A DNA stretch of 64,000 nucleotides from Halomicrobium zhouii (GTDB taxonomy: Archaea > Halobacteriota > Halobacteria > Halobacteriales > Haloarculaceae): assembly GCF_900114435.1 (NCBI RefSeq), contig NZ_FOZK01000002.1, forward strand, positions 1,116,001 through 1,180,000, in the 5' to 3' direction. Both the position numbers and the translations under genes were made by a program. Shown here one piece after another: positions 35,293 through 39,807 of the stretch. Positions within the stretch are counted from its first letter, which is position 1. Each line of letters starts with the position of its first letter. The notes under the pieces were generated by a model. It searched no databases. It had not been told where the DNA came from and saw only the letters and a program-made list of their open reading frames with translations.

Positions 35293-35769
35293 ATGGCACT
35301 CTCGGAGGAGGCACGGGAACGGCTCGTGGACGTCGTCGAACTCCAGCCCACGAAGAACGCCGATCTCCAGGACCGGTGGGACATGGAGAGCGGGAGCGAG
35401 GTCCACCAGTTCCTCGAGAACGAACTCAAGGAGTACTACTACCGCAACGAGGACAGCCTCATCTGCGCGACGCCGGAGGCGGTCGAACTGGTCGGCGGCC
35501 CCGACGCCGAAGGGCAGACGATCGCCGTCACTTCCCTCCAGTCGGCGATTCTGGAAGTGATCGCCGGTCCCGACGAAGACAGCCAGAGCGTCGTCTCGGT
35601 GCTCCACGACGTGCGCGAAACGGGCCACGACCCGACCGTCGACGAGGTCCGCTCGGCCCTGCGGAGCCTGGTCGACAAGGGCGTCGTCGAGACGGTCAAG
35701 AAGACGGTGCCGACGTTCCGGCTGGCCGTCGAACGCGACCAGCTCGACGTCGAGACGCTCGACGAGTAA
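35293..35769 (+). CDS. DUF5797 family, winged-helix-like protein
   Basis: A 158-residue protein. LSEEARERLVDVVELQPTKN, then ADLQDRWDMESGSEVHQFLE look like a DNA-binding winged helix. A second helical unit (TVDEVRSALRSLVDKGVVET) resembles another winged helix. Haloarchaeal DUF5797 is the name I recall. It starts 50 bp after the permease with a TATA-like accttatagcc about 28 nt upstream, so it may have its own promoter. Confidence 0.75.
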   Translation: MALSEEARERLVDVVELQPTKNADLQDRWDMESGSEVHQFLENELKEYYYRNEDSLICATPEAVELVGGPDAEGQTIAVTSLQSAILEVIAGPDEDSQSVVSVLHDVRETGHDPTVDEVRSALRSLVDKGVVETVKKTVPTFRLAVERDQLDVETLDE

Positions 35770-36810
35770 TTATTCCAGACCGGGTCGCTCACGCCGTCGC
35801 TGGTCGGCGAGCAGCCGTTTGATACCCTTGCCCGGCCCGCCCTCGATGGGCCAGCCGCGCGAGCGCCAGGCTGGTGGTTCGGGTTCGAACGACGGACAGG
35901 AGTGGCGACACTCGCTGGCGGTCGGCGTCCGCCCCTTCGCCGTGCAGTGGGGGACGAAGCCGGTCTCGTCGGCTCGCAACTCGAAGTGCCGGCAGTCTGG
36001 TCGCATGGTATCGGCGAAGGAGCGCCAGCCGCGCTCGTAGGCCCGCTCGGCGATTTCCAGGCGCTTCTGGGCCTTCCACTCGGGGTCGGCGTACTCGAAC
36101 CGGCCCGCCGTCGTCGCGTGCTCGCTCGGGCCCGGATTCTCCAGGATCTGGGTCCCGGGCTCGCCGACGGCCAGCGTACGGGGATGCCACGAGGTCTCGG
36201 CACGGTCCGCGTCGACGTCGAGCGTCAGGACGCCGGCGTCGACCGGCAGGTCCTCCAGCAGGATCGGTTCGACCGTCTCGCCGGTGGCGGCTGTGGCGAC
36301 CCACACCTCGTCGGCAAGTCCGAGGGCGACGTCGCGGTGGAGTTGCGGGGCCAGATCACGAGCGGCGCTGGCGTCGAGGTCCGGCTTGTTCTCGATGGCG
36401 ACGATCCGTTCGACCCAGTCGGGGTAGTCGTACGTCCGGCGGATCTCGATCCGGTTGCCGTTCTTGCGGGTGTCGAGAATGCCCCGGTCCCCTGCCCTGT
36501 GTATCGCCTCGCGGACGTACTGCCAGGGGTAGCCCGGGTCCGGGAGGGCGTCCTGGTACCACTCCCACTCCGCGGGCGCGTATGGAACGATATCGAGGAG
36601 GTCCGAATCGAGGCGCTTCTCGCCGAACTTCGCTCGCTGGCGAAGCCCCGCTGGGTCGCACTCGACGACGATGGTGTCCCAGCGCCGGCGCTTGGTGCCG
36701 AGTTGCCTGGCGACGATGGTGGGTCCCTCGTGACCACCCGCCGGTGGCCAGTCGTCCTCTGCCCACTGGCAGACCCGCAGTTCGAACGCGAACTCGCTCG
36801 TGTGCGCCAC
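35770..36810 (-). CDS. DUF5787 family; possible Fe-S PD-(D/E)XK nuclease
   Basis: A 346-residue protein with a GTG start at 36810 (VAHTSEFAFELRVCQWAEDD). The upstream in-frame stretch reads as noise. The central core has YDYPDWVERIVAIENKPDLD followed by ARDLAPQLHRDVALGLADEV, matching a D...ExK and then a Q-containing helix of RecB/Cas4-like nucleases. One cysteine lies near the N-terminus (C14) and four near the C-terminus (DCRHFEL, HCTAKG, ECRHSCPSF), the distribution of the iron-sulfur Cas4/AddB nucleases. The family has no assigned function; the nuclease reading is mine. It abuts the DUF5797 stop, convergent. Confidence 0.7.
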   Translation of the reverse strand: MAHTSEFAFELRVCQWAEDDWPPAGGHEGPTIVARQLGTKRRRWDTIVVECDPAGLRQRAKFGEKRLDSDLLDIVPYAPAEWEWYQDALPDPGYPWQYVREAIHRAGDRGILDTRKNGNRIEIRRTYDYPDWVERIVAIENKPDLDASAARDLAPQLHRDVALGLADEVWVATAATGETVEPILLEDLPVDAGVLTLDVDADRAETSWHPRTLAVGEPGTQILENPGPSEHATTAGRFEYADPEWKAQKRLEIAERAYERGWRSFADTMRPDCRHFELRADETGFVPHCTAKGRTPTASECRHSCPSFEPEPPAWRSRGWPIEGGPGKGIKRLLADQRRRERPGLE

Positions 36811-36862
36811 TATAGGGTGGGAAACGGGAATGGCGGATAAAAAAGCTACAGTCGGCGCTCGC

Positions 36863-37465: not shown

Positions 37466-38911
37466 CTATCCGCGAGGAGAGAATCCCGCCCTTCAGGGCG
37501 GGAGTGAATTCGACACTTCCTCCACAATGTACCGGCGTTAGTAGGCCGGATATTCAACGCGTATCCACACCATTAAGCAGTATTGCCTACATAGGCTATG
37601 TATGGCGATCGAGGTCACGCGCACCTACATTGGTTCCATCCAGAACCACCGGCAGGTCTGCAATGGCCTCGATTCGCTCGGTGAGTCCGCCTCGAAAATC
37701 TGGAACGTCGCACGCTGGACAGTAGACCGGATCTGGGACGCAACCGGTACAATTCCAGATGAAGGCCCGCTGAAATCGTATATGAAGAACCAGTCGTGCT
37801 GGAAAGACTTGAACGCACAATCCAGTCAGAAAGTCATCGAAGAACTTTCCGACGCTTTCCAGTCGTGGTTCGACTTGCGACAGAACGACCCAGCGGCGAA
37901 TCCGCCTGGCTACCGCAAACACGGCGATACCCGACCGCGTTCCACAGTCACGTTCAAAGCAGACGGGTTCAAACACGACCCCGAGAATAACCGCGTCCGA
38001 CTCAGCAAAGGCTCGAACCTCAAAGAATCGTGGTCGGACTTCATCCTCTGCGAGTACCAGACCCGTCCAGGTGTCGATCTGGCCGGGGTCAACAAGGTGC
38101 AGAACGTTCGAGCTGTCTGGACGGGTGACGAGTGGGAACTACACTTCGTCTGTAACGTCGAACTCGAAACCACCGACTCCGCAGACGACGAAGTGGCAGG
38201 CATCGACCTCGGCATCACGAATATCGCCACGGTCGCGTTCCCCGATGAATACGTCCTGTACCCCGGGAACTCGCTCAAGCAGGACGAGCACTACTTCACC
38301 CGCGCAGAGTACGCAACGGAAGGCGAGAACGGCCCGTCGGCGAAGTCGATGTGGGCACGCGGGAAACTCGCTGACCGTGAAACGCACTTCTACCACACGC
38401 TTACGGACACCATCACCACCGAGTGTGTCGAACGGAGCGTGGGAACGCTCGTGGTGAGTTGGCCCGAAGACGTGCGTGAATCAAACTGGGGCAAAACAGG
38501 CAACAAGAAGTTACACTCGTGGGCGTTCGACCGCATCTACCAGTACCTCGAATACAAAGGCGAGATGCGCGGTGTTGAAGTGCTAAAGGAAAACGAGTGG
38601 AACACCAGTAAGACCTGTTCACGGTGTAGTGACGACACGAAATCGAACCGTGTCGAACGTGGCCTGTACGTCTGCTCGTCATGCGAGTTGGTGGCCAACG
38701 CGGATTGTAACGGGGCAGAGAACATGCGACAGAAGATAACTCCGAGTCCTCACGGAGAGGATAGGAGTAACGGCTGTGTGGCACAGCCATCGGTACACCT
38801 GTTCGACCGCGAGAGCGGGACGTTCAAAACGAGAGAACAGGTCGTGTCGTAGACCAGCAAATATCCCACCTGCGGTACGGGAAGCCTCGCCTTTTACGGC
38901 GAGGAGGATGT
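37463..38911 (+). mobile_element. IS200/IS605-family element carrying only tnpB (IS1341-type)
   Basis: Rejoining the two halves of the host gene in frame fixes the length at 1449 bp, although the exact cut can slide by up to 3 bp (37462|38912 to 37465|38915). The left end has the hairpin CCCGCCC TTCA GGGCGGG (37485-37502), and the right end has CCTCGCC TTTTAC GGCGAGG (38885-38904). No inverted terminal repeats or target duplication, as expected for IS605-type single-strand transposition. No TnpA transposase is present, so it would need one in trans. Confidence 0.88.
37602..38852 (+). CDS. tnpB: TnpB, RNA-guided nuclease of the IS605 family
   Basis: A 416-residue TnpB. The N-terminal helical/RNA-binding part includes WNVARWTVDRIWDATGTIPD. 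RuvC-I is VAGIDLGITNIATVAF (catalytic D). The zinc finger is CSRCSDDTKSNRVERGLYVC with CSSC, and the last RuvC residue is in VANADCNGAENM. In the RuvC-II place the sequence is GTLVVSWPEDVRESNWG; the usual glutamate (VVEDL) is not in its standard position, though E of WPED may serve. Full length with no frame breaks. Its codon use looks less GC3-biased than the neighbours. Confidence 0.92.
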   Translation: MAIEVTRTYIGSIQNHRQVCNGLDSLGESASKIWNVARWTVDRIWDATGTIPDEGPLKSYMKNQSCWKDLNAQSSQKVIEELSDAFQSWFDLRQNDPAANPPGYRKHGDTRPRSTVTFKADGFKHDPENNRVRLSKGSNLKESWSDFILCEYQTRPGVDLAGVNKVQNVRAVWTGDEWELHFVCNVELETTDSADDEVAGIDLGITNIATVAFPDEYVLYPGNSLKQDEHYFTRAEYATEGENGPSAKSMWARGKLADRETHFYHTLTDTITTECVERSVGTLVVSWPEDVRESNWGKTGNKKLHSWAFDRIYQYLEYKGEMRGVEVLKENEWNTSKTCSRCSDDTKSNRVERGLYVCSSCELVANADCNGAENMRQKITPSPHGEDRSNGCVAQPSVHLFDRESGTFKTREQVVS

Positions 38912-39217: not shown

Positions 39218-39652
39218 TTACTCCTCGGTCTCCTCGAGTTTCTCGTCGAGGAACTCGTGGGCCTCTTCGAGGATCTCGCGGGGGCCGTCCTGCGTGACCG
39301 TGTTGATGGCCTGTTCGTAGTCGCGCCACTGCAGGTCGCGGTGTTCGTTGGACAGTTCTGCCGACGCCTCGTACGATTTCGCGACGAACAGGTGGACCGT
39401 CTTGTGGATGGTCTTCCCGTTCGCCTCGAAGACGTAGTCGTAGTCTTTGCGAAAGCCGTCTAACAGCCGGAAATCGCCGATCCCGGCCTCCTCTTTCACT
39501 TCGCGTATGGCGGTCTGTTGTAGCTCCTCTTCGCCTTCGACCCCACCTTTGGGGAACTCCCAGTCGCCCGGGCGGCTCTTGAGCAGCAGGTACTCCCGCC
39601 GGCCACGCGTGTCGCGAAAGAGGATGGCTCCCGCGCTCGTGGCCTCTATCAT
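39218..39652 (-). CDS. Nudix hydrolase (Ap4A/diphosphoinositol type)
   Basis: A 144-residue Nudix protein. The Nudix box GGVEGEEELQQTAIREVKEE plus AG (residues about 37-58) is complete with its REVKEE metal-binding helix. The lead-in WEFPKGGVEGEE is that of the Ap4A hydrolase/DIPP group, so dinucleoside polyphosphates are a likely substrate. The frame is open to 39658 but the ATG at 39652 begins the domain (MIEATSAGAILFRD). Faces away from the S10-like gene. Confidence 0.9.
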   Translation of the reverse strand: MIEATSAGAILFRDTRGRREYLLLKSRPGDWEFPKGGVEGEEELQQTAIREVKEEAGIGDFRLLDGFRKDYDYVFEANGKTIHKTVHLFVAKSYEASAELSNEHRDLQWRDYEQAINTVTQDGPREILEEAHEFLDEKLEETEE

Positions 39653-39807
39653 TATCAACGGGTATACGACCGTAACTTAAGAGCATATCGGACGCCCGAC
39701 GGCCAGACCGGGTGCAGCGACGCCCGCGTGGCCACTCGTGGCGGACGAGTGACATGCCGCCCGCGAAGAGGTGCGCTTTTCACTCTCGCATTCGGACGGA
39801 TCGACAG

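Follow-up and report, generated by a model that had tools for sequence, protein, structure and literature searches.

The locus raises the question of what kind of protein the haloarchaeal family DUF5787 is, and in particular whether the member encoded in the window, the whole 64,000-nt stretch of Halomicrobium zhouii DNA analysed here, is a Cas4-like nuclease, as its cysteines and ENK motif had suggested to the first-pass annotation. The reading frame proposed there, from a GTG at 36810 to a stop at 35770 on the minus strand, proved correct on reading the sequence, as did the family name: residues 32-310 of the product matched positions 1-278 of the PF19100 model, its full length, at 411.9 bits against a curated Pfam cut-off of 25 (Table 1). 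The T-rich TTTTTTAT, a possible TATA element 26 nt ahead of the GTG, would fit a leaderless haloarchaeal transcript. An NCBIfam search with the protein returned neither a name nor a relative by sequence, profiles of the two DUF5787 paralogues drew chance matches only from the PDB sequences, and the literature library that was searched contained neither papers nor activity data on the family.

A two-copy core family of haloarchaea

DUF5787 is a core family of the haloarchaea and was found only there among the sampled genomes of the phylum. It occurred in 80 of 81 genomes of the source organism's order in the phylum-wide sample and in none of the 312 phylum genomes outside the order, the lone outside match being due to chance. 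A denser sample placed it in 234 of 243 order genomes, including 203 of the 205 that were at least 90% complete, and the order genomes without it belonged to three families of small genomes. Profile searches of 14 control genomes gave a match in Haloferax volcanii only, an organism in which gene deletion is routine. The family was absent from IMG/VR viral contigs, from phages and from PADLOC when each was searched, and the single plasmid record carrying it was an 828-kb replicon of Natronorubrum bangense.

Almost every genome carried two copies, which separated cleanly into A and B types that are 30-37% identical to each other; three matches instead of two were seen in a few genomes (6). The gene in the window is of the A type, and the second, divergent copy (B) in the source genome shares 37% identity with it. 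A search of the same genome for Cas4 gave no match, indicating that DUF5787 is independent of CRISPR.

Table 1. Features of the DUF5787-A locus and its neighbours, in window coordinates, with the evidence for each.
Feature	Position	Strand	Evidence
DUF5787 paralogue A, 346 aa, GTG start	35770..36810	-	PF19100, E 2.1e-123; 140 A-type sequences as orthologues
TTTTTTAT, possible TATA element, T-rich, 26 nt upstream of the DUF5787-A GTG	36837..36844	-	direct sequence reading
Predicted first helix, residues 6-20, with E6, E10, C14, E18	36751..36795	-	both models and conservation
Predicted strands 1-2, residues 31-51, RQLG...RRWD	36658..36720	-	both models and conservation
D45 (RRWD), proposed catalytic aspartate	36676..36678	-	211/211; aligned to PDDEXK_4 catalytic Asp
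Insert, residues 53-126, possibly winged-helix-like, helices then hairpin 112-124	36433..36654	-	secondary structure, couplings, weak fold matches
YPDW, residues 129-132, includes D131	36415..36426	-	Y129 and W132 invariant
E140-N141-K142	36385..36393	-	E and N 211/211; K 210/211
Q156 of QLxxD helix	36343..36345	-	211/211; aligned to PDDEXK_4 Gln
DUF7140-like Cys4 module, C273-x15-C289-x11-C301-x3-C305	35896..35994	-	conservation, spacing, profile match, reciprocal Pfam matches
DUF5797 gene, convergent neighbour	35299..35769	+	PF19110, E 7.6e-73
IS605-type OrfB with Cas12f1-like TNB domain	37602-38852	+	PF01385, PF07282
Nudix hydrolase gene, Ap4A-hydrolase type, conserved upstream neighbour	39218..39676	-	PF00293

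Conserved residues and the putative nuclease core

Conservation was scored on an alignment of 211 DUF5787 sequences, 140 of the A type and 71 of the B type. E6, E10, R35, Q36, G38, R42, D45, R59, E140, N141, Q156 and D160 were invariant, and K142 and E18 were each present in 210 sequences. The elements on which the nuclease proposal had been built were all found in the protein, including C14, the YDYPDW...AIENK stretch, the glutamine helix (Q156 in the predicted helix 147-164) and the cysteines of DC, HC, EC and SC (273, 289, 301 and 305), and their presence is not accidental, since ENK was kept in 210 and the four C-terminal cysteines in all 211 of the orthologues. A single sequence, a B protein, reads ENN at this site and may be a natural inactive variant. 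The aspartate assigned to the core, however, had to be changed. The first-pass annotation had chosen D131 of YPDW, which is replaced in 45 of the 211 sequences, while its neighbours Y129 and W132 are invariant; the loss makes D131 an unlikely catalytic aspartate, and the 8 residues between it and E140 would also be too short for a strand hairpin. D45 never varies and fits this role, so that the metal aspartate of DUF5787 is likely to be D45, with an insert of ~75 residues preceding ENK. The motif expected of PD-(D/E)XK enzymes, an invariant D...(D/E)xK with a following Gln, was thus found as D45, E140 and Q156 in all 211 sequences and K142 in 210.

Comparison with known nuclease families gave one supportive, though weak, match. 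When the insert (residues 53-126) was removed, DUF5787 aligned with PDDEXK_4 (PF14281) of the same phylum over both halves at a score of 20.8 (P 0.014), and D45, E140, K142 and Q156 all fell on the PDDEXK_4 motif, placing an R-x-D strand, an E-x-K strand and then a Gln helix in register. Among 400 column shuffles a single one did as well, and the best of six unrelated families scored 16.2; PDDEXK_4 was one of five nuclease families tried and was picked after its ENK/QL-like motif had been noticed. Calibration on known nuclease pairs gave scores from 11.2 (Cas4 vs PDDEXK_4) to 97.5 (Cas4 vs PDDEXK_1), a spread showing that the profile test often misses true relatives, so the PDDEXK_4 result is supportive and not proof. 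The similarity is too weak for family membership, and DUF5787 differs from PDDEXK_4 in the ~75-residue insert between the D and ExK strands and in its Cys4 tail. The Hjc profile did not match DUF5787. MmcB (PF06319, PDB 3dnx), a small PD-(D/E)XK repair enzyme (PMC9578287), matched weakly and only after the ExK region, where an LP-x-E-x-G-h-h-x-x-D stretch following the post-ExK strand could be aligned; it has neither the insert nor the Cys module, its global alignment fails, and it was absent from the 100 phylum genomes searched.

AlphaFold2 was run twice, on the full-length protein with 81 alignment rows and on residues 1-216 with 72 rows, all of them A-type and >60% identical, and both models were poor (pLDDT 45.2 and 48.9). 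These two low-confidence models placed a helix at 6-20, strands at 31-38 and 43-51, the insert, a strand at 133-139 and a helix at 147-164. This helix-strand-strand-(insert)-strand-helix order would fit the alpha-beta-beta-beta-alpha-beta core fold of PD-(D/E)XK enzymes, with the insert between strands 2 and 3. Foldseek and VIA-align searches with the same models listed no PD-(D/E)XK chain and gave no fold match, a result that is uninformative because the models are poor. Coupling analysis of the 211 sequences supported a hairpin at 112-124 within the insert (pairs L112-I123 and D113-R124); the core strands were beyond its reach because they hardly vary. The full-length model matched many winged-helix chains, all at E above 1, giving a hint only that the insert may be winged-helix-like.

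Taken together, these data make it moderately probable that DUF5787 is a housekeeping, metal-dependent PD-(D/E)XK-type nuclease that is restricted to haloarchaea and carries a DUF7140-like Cys4 module. The constancy of the D/E/K/Q set across paralogues that are only 30-37% identical counts for this prediction; the poor models, a PDDEXK_4 match that is weak and requires the insert to be cut out, and the one ENN protein count against it. A fold left unconfirmed at pLDDT 45-49, the weak winged-helix matches and the B protein with ENN, would suit a nucleic-acid binder that does not cut, either derived from the PD-(D/E)XK fold or unrelated to it, acting as a regulator or structural factor through its insert and Cys4 module. 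We regard such a binder as distinctly unlikely, since invariance of D, E, K and Q in both paralogues is what catalysis would predict and goes beyond the apparent needs of binding alone.

The four-cysteine tail and the proposed Cas4-like layout

C273, C289, C301 and C305 were each present in all 211 sequences. C14 was found in 207, with Ala or Ser in its place in four B proteins. The best non-self Pfam match of the tail was DUF7140 (PF23601) and the match was reciprocal, with best E values of 0.0039-0.0054 per direction that lie below the curated cut-off in significance; the reverse match held for two of the three DUF7140 members tested, although in one of these two a chance match to TfoX_N ranked higher. 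A profile-profile comparison by hhalign of DUF7140 with paralogue A gave P 9.8e-7, with 0 of 60 shuffles as good, and a weaker match to paralogue B (P 0.006). Three of the four cysteines align, with spacings of x15 and then x11-12 and a shared C-x-HF...PxC pattern. In contrast to the DUF5787 tail, which ends with C-x3-C, DUF7140 is a standalone 42-residue domain that starts with CxxC, so that the fourth cysteine is placed differently. DUF7140 is a small haloarchaeal Cys4 domain present in 36 of 40 haloarchaeal genomes, including the source genome (C2:1020744-1020866, minus strand). Its pattern, CxxC-x15-C-x12-C followed by Trp, recalls that of high-potential iron-sulfur proteins. Given this match and the four invariant cysteines, the DUF5787 tail is best read as a self-contained, putative metal module holding Zn or Fe-S.

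These findings bear directly on the Cas4-like layout. In Cas4 and AddB the cluster is bound by a single cysteine near the N-terminus and three near the C-terminus, an arrangement that DUF3799 uses for zinc (PMC3466216). DUF5787 resembles these nucleases in having an ExK-Gln core with cysteines on both sides, and with C14 near-universal (207/211) it might be thought that a 4Fe-4S 'staple' is shared between C14 and the C-terminal cysteines in an enzyme acting on DNA ends. Such a Cas4/AddB-like Fe-S nuclease is, in our estimate, quite improbable. The conserved pattern was not one N-terminal plus three C-terminal cysteines but four invariant C-terminal ones and a dispensable C14, and the Cys module matches DUF7140. 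In addition, the Cas4 (PF01930) and PDDEXK_1 (PF12705) profiles scored 11.5 and 15.6 against DUF5787, equalled by 11 of 40 and 4 of 40 shuffles, respectively, with no Pfam match for either, and matched neither the core nor the tail, yet these two profiles find each other at P 8e-15. Of the earlier proposal of an iron-sulfur PD-(D/E)XK nuclease, the core thus gained support from the conservation of D45, E140, K142 and Q156 and the weak in-register PDDEXK_4 match, whereas the Cas4/AddB layout was not borne out. The nuclease reading is plausible and now better located in the protein than before, the strongest new points being the distribution as a two-copy core family of haloarchaea, the choice of D45 over D131 as the likely metal aspartate and the link to DUF7140.

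Proposed mechanism and gene neighbourhoods

In the mechanism that we propose for the nuclease, the active site would be assembled from four elements: helix 1 with E6 and E10, strand 2 with D45, strand 3 with E140, N141 and K142, and the helix after it with Q156. D45 and E140 would coordinate Mg2+ or Mn2+, with K142 assisting the attack, and nucleic acid would be bound and positioned by two further parts, the winged-helix-like insert that separates strand 2 from strand 3 and, at the C-terminus, the four-cysteine module of DUF7140 type with its Zn or Fe-S. Fold, chemistry, metal, winged helix, substrate and pathway are inferred in this scheme, which builds on observed family membership, distribution, paralogy, conservation, synteny and resemblance to DUF7140. 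The two ancient paralogues, kept in nearly every haloarchaeal cell, would most likely act on different substrates in genome maintenance. A more specific version envisages a clade-wide pair of nucleases in which a winged-helix insert divides the PD-(D/E)XK core and a metal module of the DUF7140 type is attached to it, the pair performing an important haloarchaea-specific step of nucleic-acid processing; this version is tentative and somewhat doubtful. If DUF5787 is a nuclease, it would fill the place of a core enzyme so far missing from the nucleic-acid metabolism of haloarchaea. The residue map of D45, E140, K142, Q156 and the four cysteines opens the question to direct test, and the resemblance to DUF7140 provides an entry point to another haloarchaeal domain that has no name.

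The neighbourhoods of the two paralogues differ. In 73 of 87 A loci a Nudix gene of the same orientation lay upstream of DUF5787-A, its Natronorubrum bangense counterpart being annotated as bis(5'-nucleosyl)-tetraphosphatase, and the convergent DUF5797 gene lay downstream in 76 of 87. In 9-10 of 12 loci the B paralogue adjoined an opposite-strand operon encoding aIF2-gamma, a PIN protein, Rpb7 and DUF359, and its other flank carried a metallo-beta-lactamase gene in 11 of 12. The Ap4A-type Nudix gene beside A and the aIF2-gamma/PIN/Rpb7 cluster beside B would be consistent with a nuclease acting on RNA (mRNA ends, rRNA or tRNA) rather than on DNA. However, PD-(D/E)XK enzymes are mostly DNases, and co-function with the neighbours is only suggested because those of B are on the opposite strand and those of A lie at variable gaps; we consider an RNA substrate unlikely.

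DUF5797 is another unnamed haloarchaeal family and, like DUF5787, is missing from small-genome families. Within the window, the Nudix gene and DUF5787-A are separated by a DUF4013 gene and the OrfB element, and in many other genomes the Nudix and DUF5787 genes are adjacent. The Nudix neighbour is far better conserved than DUF5787, at ~90% against 67% identity in the same loci.
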